A stretch of DNA of 38,229 nucleotides from Verrucomicrobiota bacterium (GTDB lineage Bacteria; Verrucomicrobiota; Verrucomicrobiia; Verrucomicrobiales; Akkermansiaceae). This document shows positions 18,022 to 31,801 of the stretch, one piece after another. How positions within the stretch are numbered: the stretch's first letter is position 1; each line of letters opens with the position of its first letter. The notes beneath the pieces were generated by a model that was given only the letters and a program-made list of their open reading frames with translations, was not told where the DNA came from and did no database searches. Where the stretch lies: assembly GCA_030835305.1 (NCBI GenBank), contig JAURPJ010000007.1, positions 1 to 38,229 on the forward strand, written 5' to 3'. The position numbers and the translations under genes are program-made.

Positions 18022-19740
18022 TTAATCCTCTTCGGACGGGCTCCACTCCTCGGAGTCGTTATTGCTGGTGGCAAGGTTGAACGCTTGCTCCAGACCAACG
18101 AGGTCGCTGGAAGGACGGAGGGTCTCGAAGGACGCGCTCTCTTTCTCAAGTTGATCGTCAGAGTATGCAACGGCCTTGATGGAGAGACCAATGCGGCGCT
18201 CGATTTTGTCAACCTTGATGACCCGGGCCTCGACTTCGTCGCTAACTTTGAGAACATCCTTAACCCGTTCTACGTGCTCCTCGCTCAGCTGCGAGATGTG
18301 GATGAGGCCATCGATGTCACCATCCAGGCTGACGAATGCTCCGAAGGAAGCAATCTTGGCAACCGTTCCGGTGACCTTGTCACCCACCTTAAATTTGCTG
18401 TCGATATCGGACCATGGGTCATTGTCGAGCTGCTTTATGCCGAGAGAAACACGCTGGTTCTCCTTGTCGATGCTAAGAACAACAGCTTCGACTTCGTCGT
18501 TCTTCTTGAGCATCTCGGAAGGATGATTGATCTTGCGGGTCCAGCTGAGGTCGGACACGTGGATCATCCCGTCGATTCCCTCTTCGAGGCCGACGAAGGC
18601 ACCATAAGCGGTGAGGTTGCGTACCTCACCCTTGATCTCCTTGCCGATTGGGTAACGGGCTTCGATCTCGGACCATGGATTCTCCTCAAGCTGACGAACA
18701 CCAAGGGAGATTTTCTGCTCCTCGGTAGAAATACCAAGAACGACCGCTTTGATCTCTTGATCAAGTTCCAGCACATCGCTGGGGCGCGTGATGCGTTTGA
18801 CCCAGGAAAGCTCGGACACGTGAACGAGTCCTTCGACCCCCTTTTCGATTTCGATGAAGGCCCCGTATGGGAGAAGCTTGGTGACATTTCCAGAGACCTC
18901 GGCTCCGATTGGGAAGCGAGCTTCAATGTCGGCCCATGGGTTGTCGGTCATCTGCTTGAGACCAAGTGAGACGCGCTCCTTGTCGCGGTCGACGTCGAGG
19001 ATCTGAACCTCGAGTTCCTGGCCGATGCGAAGCATCTCGGATGGGTGAGCGATGCGTCCCCAGCTCATATCGGTGATGTGAAGGAGTCCGTCCATACCCT
19101 GAAGATCGACGAAAGCACCAAAATCGGTGATGTTCTTGACTTGTCCTACGACCTTGTCACCTACGATGACGGTTTGGAGGAACTTCTGGCGAAGCTCGGC
19201 GCGCTCTGCTTCGATGACTTCACGACGGCTAAGAACAAGGTTCTTGCGATCGTCGTTCACCTTCACGATTTTGAATTCGTAAACGTTGCCTACGTATTCC
19301 TGAAGGTCGCGTGGAGGAATAATATCGACTTGTGACCCCGGAAGGAAAGCCTCAACGCCGACGTTCACCATTAGGCCGCCTTTGACAGCGCCTTTGACCT
19401 TTCCTTTTACAAGACCGCCGGCCTCGTAAACTTGCATGATTTTTTCCCAGTTCTGCTTGTGGGCGGCCTTTTCTTTGGAAAGGACAATCAGTCCTTCGTC
19501 ATCTTCGAGGCGCTCCAGGAGAACTTCAACTTCGTCTCCGACTTCGATATCTTCATCTTCGAACTCGGAAACCGGGATAGCCCCCTCTGATTTGTATCCA
19601 ATGTCGACAACGACTACTTGGGGACGGATGTCAAGAATCGTGCCACTGACAATCGATCCTTCTTTAAATTCGCGGAAATGCTCGTCGATGAGAGCCAAAA
19701 GCTCTGCATTCTCGGGCTCCGCCACTGCGGTTTCACTCAT
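18022..19740 (-). CDS. rpsA: 30S ribosomal protein S1
   Basis: A 572-residue S1 with six S1 (OB-fold) repeats at about residues 28-96, 113-182, 199-267, 284-353, 370-439 and 456-525, the last four most alike (GAFVDLQGMDGLLHITDMSW and relatives). The C-terminal tail of about 45 residues is acidic and serine-rich. S1 holds mRNA on the 30S subunit, which fits a genome where strong Shine-Dalgarno sites are scarce. The start ATG at 19740 gives the normal full length. The 179-base leader between tRNA-Arg and the start may carry translational autoregulation, as known for S1 in other bacteria, but I see no firm structure in it. Confidence 0.96.
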   Translation of the reverse strand: MSETAVAEPENAELLALIDEHFREFKEGSIVSGTILDIRPQVVVVDIGYKSEGAIPVSEFEDEDIEVGDEVEVLLERLEDDEGLIVLSKEKAAHKQNWEKIMQVYEAGGLVKGKVKGAVKGGLMVNVGVEAFLPGSQVDIIPPRDLQEYVGNVYEFKIVKVNDDRKNLVLSRREVIEAERAELRQKFLQTVIVGDKVVGQVKNITDFGAFVDLQGMDGLLHITDMSWGRIAHPSEMLRIGQELEVQILDVDRDKERVSLGLKQMTDNPWADIEARFPIGAEVSGNVTKLLPYGAFIEIEKGVEGLVHVSELSWVKRITRPSDVLELDQEIKAVVLGISTEEQKISLGVRQLEENPWSEIEARYPIGKEIKGEVRNLTAYGAFVGLEEGIDGMIHVSDLSWTRKINHPSEMLKKNDEVEAVVLSIDKENQRVSLGIKQLDNDPWSDIDSKFKVGDKVTGTVAKIASFGAFVSLDGDIDGLIHISQLSEEHVERVKDVLKVSDEVEARVIKVDKIERRIGLSIKAVAYSDDQLEKESASFETLRPSSDLVGLEQAFNLATSNNDSEEWSPSEED

Positions 19741-19919: not shown

Positions 19920-19996
<77 letters not shown>

Positions 19997-20057: not shown

Positions 20058-20083
20058 TTCGCCTCCTATTTCAGGAAGGCGAA
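20058..20083 (-). terminator. Hairpin overlapping the stop of the 2302-aa gene
   Basis: A strong inverted repeat (TTCGCCT(T)CCT with AGGAGGCGAA, one bulged T, loop GAAAT) overlaps the last codons and TGA of the giant gene on the minus strand. It lacks a T-run, so it may act as a 3' RNA stabiliser or a Rho-assisted end rather than a classical intrinsic terminator. Confidence 0.4.
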
Positions 20084-23000
20084 CTAGCGTGCTTGGCCAA
20101 GCGCCATCCGAAGAGTAGGCAGATCAGGATCAGGACAAAAATAAGGATCTGCCCCCCCCATCGGGTCTCGGATTTTTGAGTTTTCAATTCCAAATCGAGT
20201 TCGAGAGCCTCTTCACCATCAACCTGGATCATGCGGGTGAAGACTAGAGACTCGCCGTGAGCCGGAATCACGGGATCAATCATCTGTCCGACAGGCTCGG
20301 CAATCCGCTGGTTACGAACCCACTTGCTCGCAATAGTCTTGTGAACCCGATTCACCTCAGCGTTATTGCCCTGAATGATGTTCTGAAAATCATCCTGCCC
20401 CACATTCAGCGACCCGTTGGTAAACACCGGATTAGCACGCATCGCAGCCTGAATTTGATCGTTTTGGCTCTGGGGCACCGCAAGTTCAGCACCCTCGTTG
20501 TCCACATAGAGTCGCTGGAGCCTGGTGTTCAAACCGATAATGGCGTTCTGCTTCGCCACATTTTCCATCTTCACACGCACGTCTTCATTGCTCGCTGCAT
20601 CGAGGTTCCCCTGATCATAGACCTGACCAAGAGCGATATTCCCATTGATTTGATCGCCCGATTTAAAGAACTCTGTCGCTTTGTTCAATCTGCCCAGCGA
20701 GATTTGCTCCTTCTCCCGGTAACGGATGCTCACCAGATCGCGATACTGCTTTCTCGACAACTCACCAAGGCTGTTGGTTTTATTGTGATCGAGATCTCCG
20801 GTGGAGTCGGACAAGGCGTAACCTTCCGGCAAGGAAATCGTCCAGGAGATATTCTCCAGTGGTTCGCCAATTTTGAAGGCCTGCAGCTTGAGGTTTTTCA
20901 CGTTTAAGCTGTCAAGTGAGGTTGCGTAGGTGAAACGCACCTTGGCAAAGTCCTTGTTATCTCCAGCGGTATCGCCGGTGACCTGAAAGCGATAGGAATC
21001 GCCAACCTGCACCACAAGAACACTTTCCTCATTCACGAGGACTCCGAAAAGTCGGCTCTTCTCAGGCAGAGTCAGTGTCAGCGACCCCCGCTGCAGGGTC
21101 TCGATCCCAAGTTCAGCCTGGTTCATCAACTCCCCTCCCGGTGACAGGACCGTAAGAAGCGAACCGCTCACCACACGCATCTTGGACCCCGCAACCACCG
21201 AATGACGACTCAGCGAAACCGGAACTCCCCCGCTTTTCTGGGTGCTGCGAAGGAATTGTGCGGGAGCACCACTCCGGTCCAACTGGAAAAGAGCTTTGGG
21301 CAAAACTGACCAGTCAACCAGATCCCAATCAGAAACACCAACGGGCTCAAGTCGCAGGCGGGCCCCCGGACGGAGCGCAAGGTAGGTTTCCTGCTGGCGG
21401 GCCAAAACCACACGGACGGGATTCACCATTGAAGTGGTTATGGTTTGTTCAAACTCGACCCTCAAAGGAACACTTCCTATCACCCGCCTCTTGAAGCGAA
21501 TCTGCCAACGATTTTCCTCAATATACACAATATCCCGTACTTCCCCCCCTGATACCCGCACCGTGCGTGCATCAATCTCCGAAAGAATTGGGAGCATCAC
21601 TTCAAGCTCCTTGATGGAGGCGTGATCGACCTGCAGAATGAGATCGACCCGGGACCTCGAACGTTTCTCGCGAAGCTCCACATCATTGAGGACCTGTGCC
21701 GCCAAAGAGGGCTCAAGTTGATCAACGGACAGTGAGAGTTCCCAGGACTTCTGCAAAAGACGGAAAGCCAATGAGCCTGGTTGCGAGCCGCCCACGGAGC
21801 GGGGATCAAGGGCGGACAAGTCCTTACGGGTGGCGACGCTCAGCTGAATCCCCCGGCCGGGAACAACCACCAGTTGCCCTGACTGGCGGCTGGCTTCGTG
21901 CAAGGCCACTTTTGGAACGAACCATTTCTTAACCGGAAGCACCGGAGTCGATGCGCTTAGCACGAGAGAGAATTGCTGCGTTCCCATCGTCTTACCATTC
22001 AGGTTCATCATGATGGAACGGTTTCCTTCCTCCTCAAGCTCCACCCAGTGATTCAGAGCTGCGCCCGTGAGTGATTCCACTTCAAAGCCTTTCGGCAGGG
22101 GGAAACTCAAACGGAAGACCCCCGCACGTGTGATTGCCGCACTGAGCTCCACCGCTAAAACCGTCCGCTCTTCTCCAAAGGAGAGCCGCTGTTTCGAGTC
22201 GACCCTTACCTCGGGGGATACCGGAGCCACCTTGATTTTAAGCGAAGCGGCTGCCTCCGAGTAGCGATAGACTTTTTGAAGGGAAGCCAGAAGTTTGCCT
22301 TCGCGGTCCCGCGGAATGAGGCTACTGCTAAAGTCAGCCAGATTTACCGGTGACAAACCCTCGGACTCATCACGATCCAGTTGCGCTTCTTTGCCGAACG
22401 CCAATGCCAGCATGCCGACTTCACCCGCGGCACCCTGCACTTTCATCGGTGAAAGCGAAACCTCGACCGGCAATTCTGCCAAGGCCCGCTGGGTCTCAAC
22501 ATCAATATAAAATGGACGGGATTGGAACGGAGCCAACTCCACGGTGAGCAACCGTTTCGAGGGGTCAAAGCGCCAGGGCCCGACCAACTTGCTGCTGACA
22601 TCACTCACGGTAAAACCTTCGGGAACCGTCAGAACGAGTTGTTTCACCTGTCCTTGGGCCGGACGAATTTTAATCCGGTGGCGACCATCCACGACGCCCG
22701 GACCCGGCACGAACAAGTCATCAACCTCGGTAAAGAAGCGGGAAGCCTCCGCCGCAACATCCCGGGCCTTGGGGCTCAGGATCACCCGGGCATTCTCCTC
22801 CGGAGCCAGCCACAAGCGGGCTGAGCTGCCCTTCCCTCCGAGCGTCTTCGTTCGAACAGCCGAACTGCTGTCGATGGACCACCCGGCGGCCTCGTAGGAA
22901 ATCGAGAGCTTTCGCACGGCCGCAAGACCGGTCAGAACCGGCACGCCTTTGGTCACCAGGCCGGCCGGGGCCTGATAAGCGAAGGTCGCCTTGAATTTGC

Positions 23001-26000
23001 CGTCAGCGGTTGGGATCACCAGATAGTTTCCACCCTCGGTCACCACGCGGAGGTTCTCGCCCTCGAAGCGGGTCAAGGTTGCCGGAGCCTGAACGAGAAG
23101 GAACCGTTCACCCGCCTTTCCGCTGACCTGAATATTGCCTTCAGATGAGAGGCGCCGACCTTTAATTTCCCACATTTCCTCGATCAAGTCACCAGCTTTG
23201 ATCACATCAGTCCCTTGTTCCTGGGCCTCAGCTGAAATCGATCCGAATGCTGTAAAGAGCCCAATTAAAAGAAGTGCGGTTGCCGCACCTTTGGGGCCAG
23301 GTGTCGGCCCGGGTTCAGGCCCGTCGGCTTCCTCATCCGAACCATCGTCTATTTCGAAGTCGTCCTCTTCACGAGTAAATACTTCCTTCCACACATCAAG
23401 ACAACGTCGTGCTGCAAACCACCACAGCATCAGGATGACAATTCCGAGGCCGGAGAAAAACCATCCCGCCCCGCCAACTTGCGACAAAGATCCATAAGAA
23501 AATCCAAAAGCAGCGACTACCAGCAAAAGATCATGCTTCGCTCTCCAATTGAAGGCCAGAACCACCAAGACGAAGGAAGCAACGATCACTAATAGCCCCG
23601 GATGAGAGGCATTCAGTAGTCCCTTTTCCACATGAGAAACGGTGATTCCCAGAAGAGTGTCGGGAGCTTTTACCGGAGCGTTGTATTCCAGAACATCGGG
23701 CAATTCGACATGTTGTTGGGAACCCTGACTCGCAAGATGAAATGCTCCTGCTGCCGCGAACAATACCAGGGCGGCCCCAATCATGGACACCCCGGCCCTG
23801 ATTCGCATGATCAAACTGCCAAGGATCCAGGCTAACACGAGTATTCCAAAGCTCAAGAGTGCCTTGTTTTCGATCCAGCTGAATCCGTCTTCGAGAGTAA
23901 AGATGGTTGAGAGATTCAACCCCGTGGCGATCTCGGGTTTGAGTTGGTATCCGGTATCCGGCGTCACCTCCCAACGTGTCATCAACTGGGTCGTATCATG
24001 AAGCATCGGCGTCAAAAGACGCACCCCTGCGCTCCCCTCTTTCCCTTCCTTACTTGAGTGGACGGTGACTTTCACCGGAAGGTTTGGCGAAACCGAGTCA
24101 GGTAGCGGAATCAGGAAAAGATCTCCGGCTGCCCGCAAAGTGACCTGTTTTCCGTTCACAGAGACGTCCCGAATCTTGAGCCCCTCGGGCGCCGATAATT
24201 TGAGCTCTTGTCCATTGCGGGTTCGCACATCAAAGTTGGAAACAGTGACCACGCCGCCATCCCGGGCAATACGGCTTTCGATCTCGGCATACTCCACGAC
24301 CTGGCGGGCGGTCTCACCCCGCTCAAACCATGATACTCCGGCGACCAGCTCAAAGGGTCGAAGTTGATATTGCCATGCCTTCAATGTTGGAGCATTCGAC
24401 ATGAGCTGGTATTCCGCAGGCAACTCCAGCGGATCGAGTTGCTGCAGCTTTTTGTCTCCATTTATTTCGGTCAACTCGACTTGCCCGGGACTCACCACCT
24501 GAATGAATCCCCGTTCGGCTTGCACCTCTTCCGCAGTGACCCCGCCGAGAGCGATCGCTTCCCCCGCATTCTGCTCATAGGTCACCAGCAACTGGTAGGC
24601 CCCCATGACCGGACGATGAAGAGGCACAATCAACACCCCCTCCGTGTTCCGATAGTCACGGATATCCTGACCATCGACGCCGAGATTCTCGACTTCCGCC
24701 GGCACTGTCAGTTTCCACTCGCTCACCGGAGCTCCGGTTACGAAATAGTTGAGCAGCACCGAGACATAAGCAGTTCCTTCTTGAAGTGAGTAAAAATGGT
24801 AGCAGTCCACCTGCACGTTCTGGCTGAGCGCCACCACTTTCATCCCAGCGCTCCATTTGTCCGAACGAATCCGAAATGCTTGCTGCAAATTGGGTCCTCG
24901 TGTCAGCAGTCGGGCCAGCGGCATTTCCGCAAGACCTTCAACCTTGTCCGGATTCACCCGGAACCCGGGTGCAGCACTCACTCCAAGCTCCCCGCCAACC
25001 ACCGTGCTGACAGGGTATTCGAACGAAGGCAGGTCCCATGCACCGGCTTTGGCTGGCTCATTCTTTTCCAGGTGAACCTTCACCAGTCGTCGACCGGAAA
25101 CCTCTTTGCCAAAAATGACCTTGAGTCGGCGCATTCCCTTCTCCGGATCACTCACTACATAGTCGGAAACATCAGCACCGGTCAGGGAGACCACCGAGTA
25201 ATCCGAGGGGCCATAGAATTCCCACTCGCGAATGCCTGCTTCACGAATTTCCAGTTCAAGATCGGCGCGCAAAACACGATCAGTCTCGGTCAACTCGTAT
25301 ACGAGATTCTGGGATACAGTGATCTCAGGTTTTACTCGTTCGGCGGAAACCGAAAACGAACGATTGGCCGAAGGATAACGATAATGAAAAACCTGCCGAA
25401 TCGTCTCAGGGAGCTGGGTCGCCTCGGGGTATTGATCCGGCGAGAGTTGGGTCAGGCCGGTCGGATTCATCACTTCAATCCGAACCGCACCGCGATTGTA
25501 AACCCGGAAAAATCCGGAGTGACGCACCGCACCGACCGGAGTGAGACGAAGAGGTTCGGTCTTCACGGGGAGGGCGTCGACTGCCGACTGTGACCGAACG
25601 ATGAAAGAAGCCTCCTTGGACACCGGGCGACTGAGAACGATTTCCAGAACCCGCTTCTCTGTGACCTGCCAGCTGAGAACATTCTCGCCCTCCACAGCGA
25701 GAACCTCACCGGCCCCGGCAAGCTGCACATTGAGAGACGGAAGTGATCCCTGCAGAGTCTTAACCGTCAGCGAGGTCATCTGACGAAGCAATCCTGCTCC
25801 AATCGAGATTTCACCCATCGCTTCACTGGTGAAGAACAATTTTCCGTCGCTCGTTTTTCGTTCCGGCTGCCACGCAAACAAACACTTGCCGGTTGCCGGG
25901 AGAAAAGCGGCATGCCCGCTCTCATTTGCCATCGGACTCACTGGAAGCGCTGCATCAAATACAGCGGTTGGATTGATCCCCTTGAGGGTGATCGGAACCA

Positions 26001-26979
26001 CCGCGCCACTCGGCACAAAGAAGTCGATCTTCTTCCAATCTCCGGCTGTCTGCACAGGCGTCACAAAGGACAAATCGATCGGGTAAACCCCGTTTTTTTG
26101 AAACTCAATCTGGTATCCTTCGTCGGAAAGCTTGAGGCGGTAATCAGCCGTCGCCACCGCTTCAACGGGCGCGGCACGCCCTCGAAGAACGGTGAGGGAG
26201 ACGGGCTCCTTGCTCGTGACATAAGCGGCTCCAATCAATCGAAACGAGGCCGAACCCTCTTCTGAAATCACCTCGCCGACGAGTTGGATGTCACGAAGCT
26301 CGACCGGAGCAGGTTGGGCCGCGGAAAGAGAAATACCCGCAGAAATCACAGCACGCTCGGCTGCTGAAAGCTGATCGGTGCCAGCAGCGCTTTTAAGCGT
26401 CACCAAACCCTCTGCAGTGAGCAGTTGATGACGCAGACCTTCAGCCGAAGCCACTGAATAGGTGGCTGCGAATCCACTCGCAGCAGCCGGCCCAAAAGTC
26501 GAAATGGCATGCGAGCCGGGGATTTCGATCGGGCTTCGTTTGAACTGCACCACGAAACCCAGCTGTCTCGTCTTGGGATCCTTTGGGATGAAGTCGAGAA
26601 AGCGGAGTTCCCCTTCCTGCCGTAATGACCAGCTCTTTAAGTCCTCTCCCTTCACCGAAAGGATGGGAGCATTTCCAAGAACCTCAACGGACAAGCGATC
26701 CGCTCCACCCTGCATTACTTCAAATCTAAGATCTGCCGTTTCAATCAATTCTTCGCTTGAAAACGTTGCCGCTGAATTCACCTTGGTCACATAGAACAAC
26801 TTGGGCTTGGGTGCTGGTGCCGGAGCTTCGATCACGATGCGGTGATCCACTTTCTCTGACTTCACTTTCGCCTTTTCGACCTTGGGCGGAGTTTCTTCAG
26901 GAATGGGGGCAGATGTTTCCACCTCCTGCGCCGTGAGCCAAGAACTGAGAATTAGAGTGAGGGCGTAATGGATTTTCAT
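20071..26979 (-). CDS. Giant (2302 aa) exported, membrane-anchored beta-rich protein, apparent fusion
   Basis: I do not recognise a named family. The N-terminus MKIHYALTLILSSWLTAQ is a signal peptide, followed by a Lys/Pro/Ala linker. Residues 60-1030 are beta-rich; about 1039-1190 hold several transmembrane helices; 1200-1230 is an acidic then Pro/Gly linker. Residues 1231-1253 (ATALLLIGLFTAFGSISAEA) look like a second, internal signal peptide; 1255-2270 is again beta-rich with a helical part near 2090-2190; a final helix lies at about 2274-2294. Recurring modules of about 100 residues occur near 95-192, 414-512, 584-686, 1446-1550 and 1622-1725. It is the last gene of the sigma-VWA unit, 79 bases after the VWA gene. 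A role in envelope structure or sensing is inferred from topology and neighbours only. Confidence 0.75.
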   Translation of the reverse strand: MKIHYALTLILSSWLTAQEVETSAPIPEETPPKVEKAKVKSEKVDHRIVIEAPAPAPKPKLFYVTKVNSAATFSSEELIETADLRFEVMQGGADRLSVEVLGNAPILSVKGEDLKSWSLRQEGELRFLDFIPKDPKTRQLGFVVQFKRSPIEIPGSHAISTFGPAAASGFAATYSVASAEGLRHQLLTAEGLVTLKSAAGTDQLSAAERAVISAGISLSAAQPAPVELRDIQLVGEVISEEGSASFRLIGAAYVTSKEPVSLTVLRGRAAPVEAVATADYRLKLSDEGYQIEFQKNGVYPIDLSFVTPVQTAGDWKKIDFFVPSGAVVPITLKGINPTAVFDAALPVSPMANESGHAAFLPATGKCLFAWQPERKTSDGKLFFTSEAMGEISIGAGLLRQMTSLTVKTLQGSLPSLNVQLAGAGEVLAVEGENVLSWQVTEKRVLEIVLSRPVSKEASFIVRSQSAVDALPVKTEPLRLTPVGAVRHSGFFRVYNRGAVRIEVMNPTGLTQLSPDQYPEATQLPETIRQVFHYRYPSANRSFSVSAERVKPEITVSQNLVYELTETDRVLRADLELEIREAGIREWEFYGPSDYSVVSLTGADVSDYVVSDPEKGMRRLKVIFGKEVSGRRLVKVHLEKNEPAKAGAWDLPSFEYPVSTVVGGELGVSAAPGFRVNPDKVEGLAEMPLARLLTRGPNLQQAFRIRSDKWSAGMKVVALSQNVQVDCYHFYSLQEGTAYVSVLLNYFVTGAPVSEWKLTVPAEVENLGVDGQDIRDYRNTEGVLIVPLHRPVMGAYQLLVTYEQNAGEAIALGGVTAEEVQAERGFIQVVSPGQVELTEINGDKKLQQLDPLELPAEYQLMSNAPTLKAWQYQLRPFELVAGVSWFERGETARQVVEYAEIESRIARDGGVVTVSNFDVRTRNGQELKLSAPEGLKIRDVSVNGKQVTLRAAGDLFLIPLPDSVSPNLPVKVTVHSSKEGKEGSAGVRLLTPMLHDTTQLMTRWEVTPDTGYQLKPEIATGLNLSTIFTLEDGFSWIENKALLSFGILVLAWILGSLIMRIRAGVSMIGAALVLFAAAGAFHLASQGSQQHVELPDVLEYNAPVKAPDTLLGITVSHVEKGLLNASHPGLLVIVASFVLVVLAFNWRAKHDLLLVVAAFGFSYGSLSQVGGAGWFFSGLGIVILMLWWFAARRCLDVWKEVFTREEDDFEIDDGSDEEADGPEPGPTPGPKGAATALLLIGLFTAFGSISAEAQEQGTDVIKAGDLIEEMWEIKGRRLSSEGNIQVSGKAGERFLLVQAPATLTRFEGENLRVVTEGGNYLVIPTADGKFKATFAYQAPAGLVTKGVPVLTGLAAVRKLSISYEAAGWSIDSSSAVRTKTLGGKGSSARLWLAPEENARVILSPKARDVAAEASRFFTEVDDLFVPGPGVVDGRHRIKIRPAQGQVKQLVLTVPEGFTVSDVSSKLVGPWRFDPSKRLLTVELAPFQSRPFYIDVETQRALAELPVEVSLSPMKVQGAAGEVGMLALAFGKEAQLDRDESEGLSPVNLADFSSSLIPRDREGKLLASLQKVYRYSEAAASLKIKVAPVSPEVRVDSKQRLSFGEERTVLAVELSAAITRAGVFRLSFPLPKGFEVESLTGAALNHWVELEEEGNRSIMMNLNGKTMGTQQFSLVLSASTPVLPVKKWFVPKVALHEASRQSGQLVVVPGRGIQLSVATRKDLSALDPRSVGGSQPGSLAFRLLQKSWELSLSVDQLEPSLAAQVLNDVELREKRSRSRVDLILQVDHASIKELEVMLPILSEIDARTVRVSGGEVRDIVYIEENRWQIRFKRRVIGSVPLRVEFEQTITTSMVNPVRVVLARQQETYLALRPGARLRLEPVGVSDWDLVDWSVLPKALFQLDRSGAPAQFLRSTQKSGGVPVSLSRHSVVAGSKMRVVSGSLLTVLSPGGELMNQAELGIETLQRGSLTLTLPEKSRLFGVLVNEESVLVVQVGDSYRFQVTGDTAGDNKDFAKVRFTYATSLDSLNVKNLKLQAFKIGEPLENISWTISLPEGYALSDSTGDLDHNKTNSLGELSRKQYRDLVSIRYREKEQISLGRLNKATEFFKSGDQINGNIALGQVYDQGNLDAASNEDVRVKMENVAKQNAIIGLNTRLQRLYVDNEGAELAVPQSQNDQIQAAMRANPVFTNGSLNVGQDDFQNIIQGNNAEVNRVHKTIASKWVRNQRIAEPVGQMIDPVIPAHGESLVFTRMIQVDGEEALELDLELKTQKSETRWGGQILIFVLILICLLFGWRLAKHASSPS

Positions 26980-27058
26980 GAGATTTTAAAAAGGAGTGGC
27001 GCTCTCCAGAGCGATAAAAGTGATAGCATGGACGCTTGGGGATCCGTCCTTCCGTGAT

Positions 27059-30000
27059 TTAGTCACCAGCTTGCTGAAGCATGGTTTGAAATTCGTTGAA
27101 ACGGGCTTGATGGGCGAAGCTTGGTTTCAGGACCTGCGTCTCCTGACGTAGTCGCTTGAGTTCCACCCGATCCCCGACCGGGCTACCCTTGAGTTTCTCG
27201 GCAAAGAGCGCGGCGACGCTGGCGAGGCGTAACCTTGGATCAGCCTTCGAGAAAAACGCAACTTCAGCCTGATAAGGAATCGTCCAGGTTCGCTCGACCA
27301 TTTGATTGCTGGAGATATCGAAAAACCGAACCGAAATCGTTCCAATATCTCCACGACCTTCTGGCATTGGTTCGAAGTGATAAAGAGCAACTCCGCTTTC
27401 CTCGGCTGCCATTTCAGCGGCGTCGACAGAATCGTTTCGAAAATCCTCTTTCTTCAACTTGTGCTTCTCAAACCCATAGATTTTGAAGGTCGAGACCCGG
27501 TCCGGATTGAAGAGGACCTGCACCTTCACGTTCTTGGCAGCCGGACGAAGAGCTCCCGCGATCTGTCGGGCAAAGCCATCGTCGGCATCTTCGGGGCGAT
27601 CCAGAAAATAATAACGGCCGTCCCCTTGTTTGGTAAGAGAACTCAACACGTCATCATTGAGTCCATCCGCCCCAACACCACAGGCATCGAAGGCAATGTC
27701 AGCGCGTCGCATCGACTCCACTTGTTTTGCAAGATTCACGGGCTTGGCGTCACCCAAATTGGCGGCGCCATCGGTGAGCAAAATGATGCGATTCTGCGCA
27801 CCCTTCACGAACTGCTGTTTGGCCAACTGCAAACCGGTCGAAAGAGCTCCCTCAAGATTCGTTCCACCTTCGGTGAGCGGATTCGCGACAAAGCCTGCAA
27901 GCTTCGCGACTTCATTCCCCTTCACCCGCTCCGCCAAGAGCCGCGTTGTTCTGGCAAAGCCCACGAGCGTGACTTCGTCATTGGGATTCAATTGCGCGGC
28001 GAGCAGGGCAAAAGCCTTTTGCACACTCTCGGCCCGGTCGGCCCGCTCCATCGATCCGCTTTGATCAAGGAGTATGGTGAGCCGCAGTGGCGTCGCCGCA
28101 TTCCGCCCAAGCGAAGCGGTGCTCATGGAAACCCTCATCAGATTTCGCTGCTGCATGAAAGGATGGGAACCCTGCTCGATCTCACAGGAAATCTTCTCGT
28201 TCTGCGTCGGCTTGGCGTCGTCGTAGCTGAGCGCATTGACAAACTCTTCCGGGCGAACCTTCGAGGCGTCAGGCCAGGTCCCCTTGCTCAAGGCGGCCTT
28301 CGCCAATTTGAAGGAAACATCACTGACATTGAGGGAAAATGTGGAATCCGTTTTCTCTTTTGTTGAGGTTTCAAAGGATGCGACAACAGGCGCTTGCTTG
28401 GGGGTAATCGGCTTGCTTTTCGGAGAAATTTTCTTGAGCTTTGCAACTTCTTTCGCCGAGCCCATGTCTTCTCCCAACAACCACTCTGCTTGGCGCGTTT
28501 TCATCTTTTTCTCAGCAAATTTTTCGGCAGCCTCTACGATGCCATTCAACAATTCCAGATTAGTGGAAGTGTTACGGGCGATCAAAATATTGTCATCGCC
28601 AAGAAAGCTTGCCGAGGCGTTTTGAGGAAAAGAAATACCCTGCTCTTTAAGAACAGTTTTAAACGATTTCCCATTCGCCGTCGCTTCGCGGATCTCGTGC
28701 GCAACCTCGGGAGAGATATCCCATCGACGTTGCTTCACATCCGCATCAGCACCATCGGTGATCGGAAGAAGGATCACCCCATTCTCATCAACCTTGTAAC
28801 GAAGCTTCGCCTCATCAGCGATATGCTGGAGCGCGATTCGGGCCGGCACATTCTTGAGCTCGAGATTCTTGATCTTATTCCTGGAGAGATCCAGAGAAGC
28901 ACCAAAACCCTCTTCCCCGTTCGTCGTCAAAGTTCCCGGTGAAACCACCCGAATATCAATCCCTTTCCGGGCTCCGTTCCGGGGTGTGGAGTCCAGTTCA
29001 CGGGTCCGTGATTCGATGAACTCGATAGCTTCTTTTACGGTCACATTGTCTAGTTTAACCTCTGGGATAATGACTTGGTTGAGCCGGTCGAGGTTTTCAT
29101 TTGCTTTCACTTGATTGTCAGAAAACTCTCCGTAAAGCGGAATTGCTTCCGCTTCCACCAGACTCAATTGCGCCTGTTTATCTTGATCTTCAACCTCTCC
29201 GGCAAAGGGATCTGGATCGACTATTTTTTGATCCTCCTTTGCTGAGAATGGATCCGAATCATCGTCATTCGTCTCGAAAAAATTAGACTGCCCCCCCTTC
29301 ACCCCAGAGAATGGATCGTTTGCGACGAGACCATCAGCATCTTCGTCCTGAGTGGCGGGAAGCTTCCAAGCCTTATCCACCTTCATCAACATTTCGGCCC
29401 GAGTCTGATCATAGGCGGCGCGATACTTGGCGACTGCTGACTCATAGTCGCTATAGGAGTAGGCTTGCCTGCCTCCAATCAAGCGTTTACCTGCAATCTC
29501 TACGCCATCCTCGCGCCGCATGATTTCCTGCGCGAGAAGCTCCAGCCCGCCTGTTGACGCTTCCTCGGCGGGCTCCTCTTCGACCTCCCTTCCCCGGGAA
29601 ATTGATTCAACTGCCTTGCGCTGAGCAATTCCGGGGTGCGACTCATCGCTCTCGATTTCATCAACAGCTACCTGGGCTCTACGTGCTGGCATAGAAACAC
29701 CACCGGGATTTTGCCCATCGTTTGGAATCGCCAATCCATCAGCCGCGACTCCTCCGTCCACCACACCAGCTTTAGCAGTAAAGCGAGTCCTCGTTGTGGA
29801 AAATCCCTCTGAATCTTGGCCGGAATCCCGGTTTACGGACTCCGCGACAGGAGTCGCTGCGGACAAGGGGAAACGGAAACCCAATTTCTTGGCGCTTGCA
29901 TCAGCTGGTCTGCCACCGGCATCTTCGTCACGTCCATTATTATCCTTTGCCTTACCTTCTGCGAAATCCTTCCCGGCCTTCCGTCCGCTCTCTCTCGTGG

Positions 30001-31150
30001 TGATTCTGTGATCTTTTTCTCCGAGATCAGAGATCAAACTCTTATTTTTTTCTCGGGACGCCACACTTCTTTCTTCCTCATCAAATCGGAAAGACTCCGA
30101 CTTGTTGGCATCCGTCAATTCGAAGTCCCAAGTAGCCTCATCATCATTCAACTCGCGTCCCTCCACGACAGCGTCACCAAGAGCCGCGGCGTTGGGACGT
30201 GCGAGCGGAAGATTTTCTCCGCCTCCACCAGCAATAACGCCGCCACCAACACCTCCGCCAGATGCGAAACCATCGCCAAAATCAGAAACCGGATCCGGAA
30301 TAGCAACCGGAGGTGCCGGGACCGCGGCAGGAGAACTTGTATTCGACGCGATCGCCTTACTCATGACAGCTTTTGGAGCTGGGGGTTTCCCCGCGAACCC
30401 ACCCGATGAAGCTTCACTACTCTCAACCATCGCAGGAAGTTCTTTCATAACCGTAGGGACAGAAACCGAGCCCCCGTTGGGAATTACCACTGCATCGTTC
30501 CCAGACGAAAGAGCGCTATTCAACCCTGCGTTCGCATGAGCCGCCTCTTGTTTTTGGGAAATGGCATCTTGCTTTTTCCACGGGGTATTTGCCTCCGGGG
30601 TAACGAGCTCTTTCTTATCGTTCCCTCTCTGAGCACTTTCCTCAACTGATTTGAAGGCGCTTTCGAAATTGGCAGACCCCGCAGAAAGGTCGATCTCTCC
30701 TTTCGATTTCTCGTCCTGTTCAGTTTCCGCGAGTGCCGTCATCCGGGCTAACTCTTTCTCCGATCCCAGTGGTTGGCTTAGCACCAAAATCACAAGCGTG
30801 AGCACGAGGCAGGCCGCACAGGTGTAAATCAATCGTCGTTGGGCGATTCTCGAAATCCGCTTCCGCCTCGCCTCCACCGTCTCACGGCGCTTCCTCTCAT
30901 CGATTTTGGCCAGAATCCTTCCCCGCCTGACATCCGATAGTTTCCACTCCGACTCATCCTGCTCCCGGTGAGCTTCCGACACGATGCCGTCAATTTTCTC
31001 CAGGCCTCTCCGATAAGCCTTGAGCTCCGGCCTCTCCGAGATCAATCGCTCAAGCTCTTCAGCTTCAAAGGCAGAAGCTTCGCCAAGAACCAGAGCTACG
31101 ATGCGAGCTTCCAGCTCGGGCTCGATATAGGTTTGAAGATCATCGTTCAT
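27059..31150 (-). CDS. 1363-aa membrane protein: anti-sigma-like N-terminus, STN-like domain, YfbK-type VWA domain
   Basis: Residues 1-105 are charged and helical, like a cytoplasmic anti-sigma region, with one transmembrane helix at about 107-126. Residues 130-690 are low complexity (Ser, Gly, Pro, Asp, Glu; a GGGVGGGV stretch near 298-305). Residues about 696-800 (VKLDNVTVKEAIEFIE, VPARIALQHIADEAKL) resemble the STN domain of secretins and FecA-type receptors. About 920-1020 is a YfbK N-terminal-like region; 1024-1190 is a VWA domain with an intact MIDAS (DQSGS at 1029-1033, GGTN near 1095-1098, LTDG near 1125-1128); 1190-1363 is DUF3520-like. I chose ATG 31150, 12 bases after the sigma factor stop, over the TTG at 31162. 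It probably controls or is controlled by the sigma factor; ligand unknown. Confidence 0.8.
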   Translation of the reverse strand: MNDDLQTYIEPELEARIVALVLGEASAFEAEELERLISERPELKAYRRGLEKIDGIVSEAHREQDESEWKLSDVRRGRILAKIDERKRRETVEARRKRISRIAQRRLIYTCAACLVLTLVILVLSQPLGSEKELARMTALAETEQDEKSKGEIDLSAGSANFESAFKSVEESAQRGNDKKELVTPEANTPWKKQDAISQKQEAAHANAGLNSALSSGNDAVVIPNGGSVSVPTVMKELPAMVESSEASSGGFAGKPPAPKAVMSKAIASNTSSPAAVPAPPVAIPDPVSDFGDGFASGGGVGGGVIAGGGGENLPLARPNAAALGDAVVEGRELNDDEATWDFELTDANKSESFRFDEEERSVASREKNKSLISDLGEKDHRITTRESGRKAGKDFAEGKAKDNNGRDEDAGGRPADASAKKLGFRFPLSAATPVAESVNRDSGQDSEGFSTTRTRFTAKAGVVDGGVAADGLAIPNDGQNPGGVSMPARRAQVAVDEIESDESHPGIAQRKAVESISRGREVEEEPAEEASTGGLELLAQEIMRREDGVEIAGKRLIGGRQAYSYSDYESAVAKYRAAYDQTRAEMLMKVDKAWKLPATQDEDADGLVANDPFSGVKGGQSNFFETNDDDSDPFSAKEDQKIVDPDPFAGEVEDQDKQAQLSLVEAEAIPLYGEFSDNQVKANENLDRLNQVIIPEVKLDNVTVKEAIEFIESRTRELDSTPRNGARKGIDIRVVSPGTLTTNGEEGFGASLDLSRNKIKNLELKNVPARIALQHIADEAKLRYKVDENGVILLPITDGADADVKQRRWDISPEVAHEIREATANGKSFKTVLKEQGISFPQNASASFLGDDNILIARNTSTNLELLNGIVEAAEKFAEKKMKTRQAEWLLGEDMGSAKEVAKLKKISPKSKPITPKQAPVVASFETSTKEKTDSTFSLNVSDVSFKLAKAALSKGTWPDASKVRPEEFVNALSYDDAKPTQNEKISCEIEQGSHPFMQQRNLMRVSMSTASLGRNAATPLRLTILLDQSGSMERADRAESVQKAFALLAAQLNPNDEVTLVGFARTTRLLAERVKGNEVAKLAGFVANPLTEGGTNLEGALSTGLQLAKQQFVKGAQNRIILLTDGAANLGDAKPVNLAKQVESMRRADIAFDACGVGADGLNDDVLSSLTKQGDGRYYFLDRPEDADDGFARQIAGALRPAAKNVKVQVLFNPDRVSTFKIYGFEKHKLKKEDFRNDSVDAAEMAAEESGVALYHFEPMPEGRGDIGTISVRFFDISSNQMVERTWTIPYQAEVAFFSKADPRLRLASVAALFAEKLKGSPVGDRVELKRLRQETQVLKPSFAHQARFNEFQTMLQQAGD

Positions 31151-31162
31151 ATCCGTGTGCAA

Positions 31163-31690
31163 TTAAAGGTGGCTGATCCCGGACTTGCGCAGTCGCTCGC
31201 CGAGATCTTTGAGTAAGTGGTGGAGCCGGTATCCGACGTTGCCGACGCTCATCTCGAGCTTGTCGGCTATTTCCTGATATTTGAGGCCCTGAAAATACTT
31301 CATCCGGACCATCGACTGGTCGCGTTCTTCCATTTCGGAGACAAGCATCTGGATCATTCCGACTGCTTCGAGCCGACCGAGTTCATCATCAGGCCGCTCG
31401 AGAGCTGATTCACGTTCGCCCGGCGATTCATCGAGCGTCTCACGGTTATTCTTCCGAAGAATGTTGAACGAAAAATTCCGCACACAGCGAAAGAGCCATG
31501 CACGGGGAATTTCAACCTCGTCCCAGTGTTGGTGGAGCTTCAGAAAAGCGTCTTGCACGACTTCCTCGGCGAGTTCGCGTCGCCCAAGCAAACCGAAGGC
31601 ATAGCGGAGCAGCGGGCTTTCCTCTTCGGAAAAGACCTCTTCAAGAGACCGCCGGGTCACCGGAGAGGTCATTTTACCGGGTAGGCGCAT
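31163..31690 (-). CDS. ECF-type sigma-70 family RNA polymerase sigma factor
   Basis: About 175 residues with the two ECF domains: sigma2 (SPLLRYAFGLLGRRELAEEVVQ, then AWLFRCVRNFSFNILRK for the -10 melting region) and sigma4 (MVRMKYFQGLKYQEIADKLEMSVGNV, a helix-turn-helix for the -35 box). The frame is open to a GTG at 31732; ATG 31690 and ATG 31672 are both possible, and no ribosome-binding site decides between them. It heads a three-gene minus-strand unit, with the VWA membrane protein beginning 12 bases after its stop. This arrangement is typical of a sigma factor held by a membrane-bound partner; which genes it controls is unknown. Confidence 0.88.
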   Translation of the reverse strand: MRLPGKMTSPVTRRSLEEVFSEEESPLLRYAFGLLGRRELAEEVVQDAFLKLHQHWDEVEIPRAWLFRCVRNFSFNILRKNNRETLDESPGERESALERPDDELGRLEAVGMIQMLVSEMEERDQSMVRMKYFQGLKYQEIADKLEMSVGNVGYRLHHLLKDLGERLRKSGISHL

Positions 31691-31801
31691 AATCGACGGT
31701 CTTGAGACCTGCTGTGAACTTCCTTGGGACACGGATAGGCATTCTTTTCAATGGCTGCGACACCTCATGAAATGAATCCTTGGAAAAAAAGATAATTTTT
31801 T

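Follow-up and report, generated by a model that had tools for sequence, protein, structure and literature searches.

A stretch of 38,229 nucleotides (the window; contig JAURPJ010000007.1 of assembly GCA_030835305.1, source genome 4.45 Mb) from an Akkermansiaceae member of the Verrucomicrobiota carries three genes in a row, encoding an extracytoplasmic function (ECF) sigma factor, a membrane protein with a YfbK-type von Willebrand factor A (VWA) domain, and a giant beta-sandwich protein of 2302 amino acids (aa). That they work as one sigma/anti-sigma system is supported by their conserved layout, by a predicted fold that resembles anti-sigma domains and by a conserved promoter-like site in front of the set. 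With moderate confidence we consider it probable that this is a self-regulated operon guarding the cell envelope, in which the VWA protein would be the anti-sigma factor, the giant its partner and, in relatives, protease traps part of the output. The layout, the domains, the anti-sigma-like fold, the two modules of the giant and the recurring promoter-like site are shown by sequence comparison or structure prediction. To our knowledge, the ways in which Verrucomicrobiota and Planctomycetota detect envelope damage have hardly been described; offered here are a conserved three-gene candidate switch with a defined promoter-like site and named candidate targets, and a domain arrangement that joins a putative anti-sigma factor to a VWA domain and a secretin-like piece, by which the question becomes directly testable in cultured relatives.

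Conservation of the three genes and of the site before them

An earlier interpretation of the window made from its letters alone (the sequence-only reading) had described a minus-strand row of three genes, and the coordinates (Table 1) confirm it, with gaps of 12 bases between the sigma and VWA genes and 79 bases between the VWA and giant genes. The sigma gene opens with ATG, a GTG at 31732 that begins the longest frame being a possible earlier start, and the VWA gene is taken from the ATG at 31150, its longest frame running from a TTG at 31162. The sigma protein (189 aa) is small and contains Sigma70_r2 (PF04542) and Sigma70_r4_2 (PF08281), both over the Pfam cut-offs, as expected of the ECF sigma factor that had been claimed. 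A scan of named genomes with an alignment of the giant gave 105 relatives, of which the best 80 were kept, making 81 loci with the window; 14 of these hold too little DNA upstream of the giant, and the count was restricted to loci with at least 1.5 kb before it. In this comparison, which the sequence-only reading had proposed for Verrucomicrobia genomes, a VWA gene precedes the giant on the same strand in 67 of 67 loci. The VWA gene in turn has an ECF sigma gene before it on the same strand in all 59 loci with a closed VWA frame and more than 700 bases upstream. A looser rule gives 62 of 62, the three added loci having fewer than 700 bases upstream and being counted because the sigma gene is visible. 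The three-gene layout is beyond chance. A further set of relatives, from partly overlapping genomes, has the same gene order wherever the contig reaches.

The open VWA frame extends beyond the sigma start in two (L130, L135), it is broken in two others that still show the N-terminal domain between the sigma gene and the break (L124, L149), and in a further two (L081, L094), where no sigma gene was found, it runs into the contig end. In seven loci (L076, L121, L146, L148, L151, L183, L186) the VWA frame and the first aligned residue of the giant are 0.6-1.3 kb apart, and in L076 (7167-8453) this space contains a 428-aa frame matching no Pfam family. The best 80 of the 105 relatives are mostly titled Akkermansiaceae, Opitutaceae or other Verrucomicrobia; five have titles that place them in Planctomycetota groups, the isolate Rhodopirellula maiorica among them. 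Other isolates are Haloferula rosea, Luteolibacter marinus, Roseibacillus persicicus and Rubritalea profundi, and the named record closest in the giant (97% identity) is a Verrucomicrobiia metagenome-assembled genome.

The pairing of the first two genes is wider than this clade. In 19 paralogous YfbK-VWA loci (about 30% identity), chosen from a longer list, an ECF sigma gene stands directly before the VWA gene in every case, and no giant was found within the 8-13 kb fetched. Sigma and VWA genes are thus not usually apart, being together in 59 of 59 operon loci and 19 of 19 paralogous ones. The profile of the operon's N-terminal domain recognises 6 of the 19 paralogous proteins, and a tree of the VWA part, built from 68 of the 70 operon VWA proteins and the 19 paralogues, splits the two sets with support 1.0. 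Beyond the phylum, in Mesorhizobium huakuii, the neighbouring tags MCHK_2864 (yfbK) and MCHK_2865 (sigma-70) are given similar induction values in one data set (PMC3973600). A sigma gene with a YfbK-VWA gene is therefore a common pair, and the giant marks one clade.

Before the sigma gene lies a bipartite promoter-like site, which in the window reads TTCCAAGGA-N13-GTGTCG, with its -35-like part at 31777-31785 and its -10-like part at 31758-31763, and which is the sole exact copy in its genome. The aligned loci give the consensus TTCYAAGRA-N13-GKGTCW. After 60 sigma upstream regions were dereplicated to 51, the core CTAA-N17-TGTC occurred in 25 of them, against at most 8 in each of ten shuffled sets. 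A spacer of 13 bases separates the two parts of the best match in 56 of 60 loci, a count made without a control, and at that spacing 50 of the 51 dereplicated loci, which are also the training set of the scoring matrix, keep at least 11 of 15 site positions and score 16.2-26.2 bits; both readable Planctomycetota loci have the site, with 11 of 15 positions each. The best score anywhere in the 19 paralogous loci is 15.1 bits, and the site appears specific to the giant-bearing clade; counting against this, that 15.1-bit match (L202) lies at the start of a sigma frame. The operon's own sigma factor would be the one that reads the site. Scans for sigma-70-type promoters and terminators gave counts at chance level.

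Domains of the VWA protein and of the giant

All 60 uncut and unbroken VWA frames, out of 70, have the N-terminal domain, and they align as LEARIVAWVLGEASAFEAAELERL...WKLPPEKR, followed by a membrane helix. The fold predicted for it has three short helices and a long fourth (predicted local distance difference test, pLDDT, 83.8). A Foldseek search with this model returned 31 matches, 18 of which, including ranks 1-9, come from ECF anti-sigma complexes; the closest solved folds are those of RslA, MucA, RskA, ChrR and RsiW, with weak scores, and VIA gives Z values of 6.3 for RslA (over 60 residues), 5.9 for RsiW and 5.5 for MucA. The NCBIfam antisigma model NF052375 matches 45 of the 60 N-termini at E <= 0.1, the best at 9.1e-8. 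Class I anti-sigma domains are described as three helices plus a fourth, many of them without a zinc motif (PMC7406223); the features of that class found here are the adjacent ECF sigma gene (59 of 59) and a three-helix bundle with a fourth helix, the latter in prediction only. Several observations weigh against the assignment. Every Foldseek E-value is 0.76 or worse, unrelated helical proteins reach similar VIA values (prohibitin, Z 5.9), and a search for anti-sigma identity with a Protein Data Bank sequence profile gave only two receptor matches at chance level. The window N-terminus scores 21.3 bits with NF052375, where the curated cut-off is 100, and no Pfam anti-sigma family matches it, the sole case among the N-termini being zf-HC2 in one other member (0.0026). 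The anti-sigma-like N-terminus of the sequence-only reading is thus favoured by the predicted fold, which does resemble ECF anti-sigma domains, and not by the profile search it had suggested, in which no curated cut-off was reached for the window protein. We predict a cytoplasmic ECF anti-sigma-like domain in front of one membrane helix, a topology that would place the remainder of the chain in the periplasm, and suppose that the VWA protein binds and inhibits the sigma factor.

Behind the membrane helix, composition analysis marks a biased stretch of about 400 residues; the total length of the VWA protein differs between homologues. It is followed by the part that had been called STN-like, an assignment that holds: residues 682-887 match the NCBIfam Amuc_1098 secretin family at 5e-41 (140.6 bits; the cut-off, set for the whole protein, is 750), and residues 673-879 are 45% identical to the PilQ-like secretin of Amuc_1098 type in the same genome (L208:969-3575). 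The secretin barrel PF00263, present in that secretin, is not found in the VWA protein among Pfam matches to E 1. The piece is patchy, with matches in 11 of the 69 other operon VWA proteins at E <= 1e-5, which suggests domain capture. The C-terminal part is of the YfbK type, as had been stated, with PF12450, VWA and PF12034 in this order and all over their cut-offs, and the DxSGS motif is kept in 68 of 68 operon VWA proteins.

The two-part, beta-rich nature ascribed to the giant is likewise borne out, since its halves are homologous (local hhalign 4.5e-40 over 752 columns; controls 0.043 reversed and 0.44 shuffled). The model of the second half (pLDDT 86.3, predicted template modelling score 0.43) is a string of beta sandwiches with a helical segment and a terminal membrane helix. 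VIA places ribophorin I/OST1 at the top (Z 16.2, root-mean-square deviation 17.7 over 336) and the beta domains of M1 aminopeptidases next (Z 14.3, 3.0 over 158), the M1 rows covering only the beta domain of this half. No Pfam family matches the giant at E <= 1, neither MG, A2M or bMG10 nor the M1 catalytic domain. Among the best 50 of 1247 Foldseek matches, complement C5, CD109 and A2M stand behind ribophorin I and integrins, with template modelling scores of 0.05-0.07. Because of these scores and the missing Pfam domains, the likeness to alpha-2-macroglobulin is that of generic tandem beta sandwiches, and an identification of the giant as such a protein was rejected.

Each half has matches in two neighbouring protein families, of about 1200 and about 1500-1770 aa, and a third neighbour is matched by the second half; these relatives are separate adjacent genes in nine loci from other genera and families of the order, some of them cut by locus ends. 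Five of the split relatives contain a stretch like the secretin-like piece of the VWA protein, and the one scanned (from L100) shows STN and Secretin_N matches below the Pfam cut-offs. The hydrophobic segments between the halves of the giant, together with an internal segment resembling a signal peptide, are what would be expected if two secreted proteins had been fused. In loci L100-L108, two or three giant beta-rich proteins lie side by side, with no sigma gene in the fetched DNA.

Proposed mechanism, candidate targets and rival explanations

We propose that the three genes are transcribed as one operon from their own ECF promoter. The cytoplasmic N-terminus of the VWA protein would hold the sigma factor at the inner membrane. 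The signal would be received on the periplasmic side, by the disordered tether, the secretin-like N-domain piece and the VWA domain with its metal ion-dependent adhesion site (MIDAS). The giant would be a membrane-anchored periplasmic partner of two fused beta-sandwich modules, in contact with the VWA protein and most likely holding or presenting the ligand of its VWA domain. A disturbance of the envelope, perhaps sensed through the giant and presumably coming from outside the cell, would make the VWA protein release the sigma factor. Once free, the sigma factor would transcribe the operon that encodes it and also, in several relatives, the genes of an alpha-2-macroglobulin trap and of DUF4139 proteins. 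A narrower version, which we think improbable, is an alarm for protease attack: the tether would be a cleavable bait, screened or presented by the giant, and a cut by a foreign protease would free the sigma factor, so that traps are made and the alarm is rebuilt.

The strongest rival, to which we give somewhat less than an even chance, is that the first two genes are an ordinary sigma/YfbK-VWA pair and that the giant, a structural protein in its own right, is only their co-transcribed main output and no partner in sensing. The 19 paralogous pairs do without a giant in the DNA fetched, and the relatives of the giant in the nine loci, partly cut by locus ends, show no sigma gene, so the family can work alone. 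On the other side, wherever the DNA suffices (67 of 67 loci), the giant of the operon clade comes after the VWA gene, and the secretin-like stretch in five split relatives hints at one shared machine.

The proposed operon as regulator of further genes rests on copies of its site elsewhere. In 23 operon-bearing relatives the exact pattern occurs 21 times, against 6 for the reversed pattern; 10 of these sites lie before the operon and 11 elsewhere, and 8 of the 11 coincide with or closely precede the beginning of a reading frame, the one in G120 falling within the 5' end of the longest frame. Behind these sites lie genes for alpha-2-macroglobulins (three genomes), for DUF4139 proteins (two genomes, in one of them as the second gene), for one VIT-VWA protein and for two proteins that match no Pfam family. 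With a 15-column matrix made from operon sites only and a threshold of at least 12 bits, we scored 40 of 44 alpha-2-macroglobulin genes listed from operon-bearing genomes and 40 of 48 from operon-lacking genomes, one of four left out being read separately. A wide window contains sites before 10 of 40 and 4 of 40 genes, respectively, and on the opposite strand before 2 and 0. Narrowing the window leaves sites before 9 of 40 genes of operon-bearing genomes, compared with 2 of 612 other genes (p 2.5e-10), one of those two being the operon's own VWA frame; without the three discovery genes the figure is 6 of 37 (p 5.9e-7 against the background). DUF4139 orthologues have a site in 4 of 9 cases in 24 genomes, two of the four being discovery cases.

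From these data we suggest that some alpha-2-macroglobulin and DUF4139 genes belong to the operon's regulon in relatives; other counts stand against this. Operon-lacking genomes have a narrow-window site before 2 of 40 genes, so that the contrast with 9 of 40 gives p 0.048, and without the discovery genes (6 of 37) p 0.14; one of them, G103, has a 20.3-bit site before an alpha-2-macroglobulin gene. None of the 23 genes from operon-bearing genomes in the largest alpha-2-macroglobulin cluster has a site, and 5 of the 9 DUF4139 orthologues are without one. Elsewhere-sites lie near a gene start in 8 of 14 cases, against 3 of 11 in operon-lacking genomes (p 0.23); 11 of the 17 elsewhere-sites of operon-lacking genomes were examined, and a site in G014 was left out. 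In the window's own genome, sites with one mismatch occur at the control rate (19, control 25), and its gene for an alpha-2-macroglobulin of the class that carries the site seems to be a remnant, or the product of an assembly fault (G000:C122; L368, about 7218).

Another sigma factor may share the site, and it is possible, if on the doubtful side, that other ECF sigma factors of similar promoter taste read it before alpha-2-macroglobulin and DUF4139 genes, the operon regulating only itself. The weak contrast between operon-bearing and operon-lacking genomes, the G103 site and the uniqueness of the exact site in the window's genome fit this explanation; against it, a matrix derived from operon sites alone finds these genes far above the background of 2 in 612, and the paralogous sigma-VWA loci stay at or below 15.1 bits. 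Unlikely, finally, is that the VWA protein is an activator or a scaffold keeping the sigma factor at the membrane, or that the system monitors pilus assembly at a type IV pilus/secretin complex: the 45% identity to the PilQ-like secretin and the report that Amuc_1098 of Akkermansia resides in the outer membrane and is predicted to be a type IV pilus secretin (PMC4960237) speak for it, but the secretin-like piece is patchy (11 of 69), and the anti-sigma-like fold and domain order resemble those of inhibitors. If the regulon link of the proposed operon is true, one class of bacterial alpha-2-macroglobulins gains a regulator, and the site before some protease-trap genes in relatives allows a concrete guess at the purpose of the alarm.

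Two further observations concern candidate targets in the window's own genome. A 14.0-bit site lies about 0.5 kb before a C-terminal alpha-2-macroglobulin fragment (C122:20203-20493), and the sister genome has an open alpha-2-macroglobulin frame of 2018 aa with a similar site. A tentative target on C47 (about 990-1100; L369) was not retained: its site scores 14.8 bits and, among seven relatives searched, is shared with the sister genome G134 only, five other relatives reaching 12.1 at best. It lies 79 bases before a gene for a secreted protein, of which the sister genome has an open frame of 2153 aa.

Known systems and neighbouring features

ECF sigma factors with class I anti-sigma factors are known to form self-regulated systems. 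The genes described here share with them (RslA, RskA, RsiW, MucA/RseA, ChrR) the adjacency, the predicted helices, the one membrane helix and a bipartite promoter, and differ in the long tether and YfbK VWA of the periplasmic part and in a giant third gene throughout the clade. The YfbK family has all three Pfam domains and the neighbouring sigma gene in common with the VWA protein, in which the anti-sigma-like domain, the membrane helix and the long tether come first; we know of no demonstrated anti-sigma role of Escherichia coli YfbK. Cell-surface signalling of the FecI/FecR type comprises a sigma factor, a membrane anti-sigma factor, an STN domain and a TonB receptor. The genes described here likewise combine a sigma factor and a putative membrane anti-sigma factor with an STN-like piece, but this piece is inside the putative anti-sigma factor itself and resembles a pilus secretin, and the third gene encodes a giant and not a TonB receptor. 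Bacterial alpha-2-macroglobulin, an envelope protease trap, is a beta-sandwich chain like the giant and at the same time the product of a candidate output gene; unlike it, the giant has no Pfam macroglobulin domain and finds its best VIA rows in ribophorin I/OST1 and the M1-peptidase beta domain.

The sequence-only reading had seen a combination that it could not match to a named system. This claim is trimmed, since a sigma gene beside a YfbK-VWA gene is common and in the same order: the sigma/anti-sigma logic and the YfbK unit are of known kinds, and what is special is the giant together with the dedicated promoter-like site. In the open-licence papers examined we found nothing joining an ECF sigma factor, a VWA anti-sigma protein and Verrucomicrobia, nor a design of anti-sigma domain, tether and VWA domain with a dedicated giant and promoter; a term search of the main text of an ECF review finds no mention of VWA, von Willebrand or Verrucomicrobia (PMC8103513).

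Table 1. Positions in the window of the three genes, their parts and the site before them
Feature	Position	Strand	Basis
Bipartite promoter-like site before the sigma gene	31758..31785	-	motif alignment
ECF sigma factor	31163..31690	-	Pfam domains; alternative GTG start 31732
VWA membrane protein, putative anti-sigma factor	27059..31150	-	Pfam, NCBIfam, N-terminal profile
Anti-sigma-like domain: three helices and start of the long helix entering the membrane segment	30863..31150	-	predicted fold
Single membrane helix of the VWA protein	30758..30841	-	hydropathy
Long, compositionally biased linker, probably disordered, presumably periplasmic	29543..30757	-	composition
Two short segments like the genome's own Amuc_1098-type secretin (residues 541-585, 571-601)	29354..29542	-	
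Secretin N-domain-like (STN-like) segment	28502..29146	-	45% identity to own Amuc_1098-type secretin
vWF_A (PF12450) domain	28133..28369	-	Pfam over cut-off
VWA domain with DxSGS motif (MIDAS, residues 1033-1037)	27593..28081	-	Pfam over cut-off
YfbK_C (PF12034) domain	27125..27553	-	Pfam over cut-off
Giant 2302-aa two-module beta-sandwich membrane protein	20071..26979	-	
Giant, first homologous module	23941..26241	-	hhalign
Giant, block of several hydrophobic segments between modules	23407..23874	-	hydropathy
Giant, internal hydrophobic segment resembling a signal peptide, ahead of second module; may be a fusion relic	23224..23292	-	inference
Giant, second homologous module	20794..23133	-	hhalign and model
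Giant, domain resembling the beta domain at the N-terminus of M1 aminopeptidases, with helical insertion	20179..21192	-	
Giant, C-terminal membrane helix	20083..20169	-	model and hydropathy

A defence-system reading was dropped because the PADLOC anti-phage defence models gave no match to the three proteins at E <= 0.01. Immediately downstream of the operon come a tRNA-Arg gene (acg, 19920-19996) and a protein gene at 18022-19740 whose product resembles, by eye, repeated S1 RNA-binding domains.

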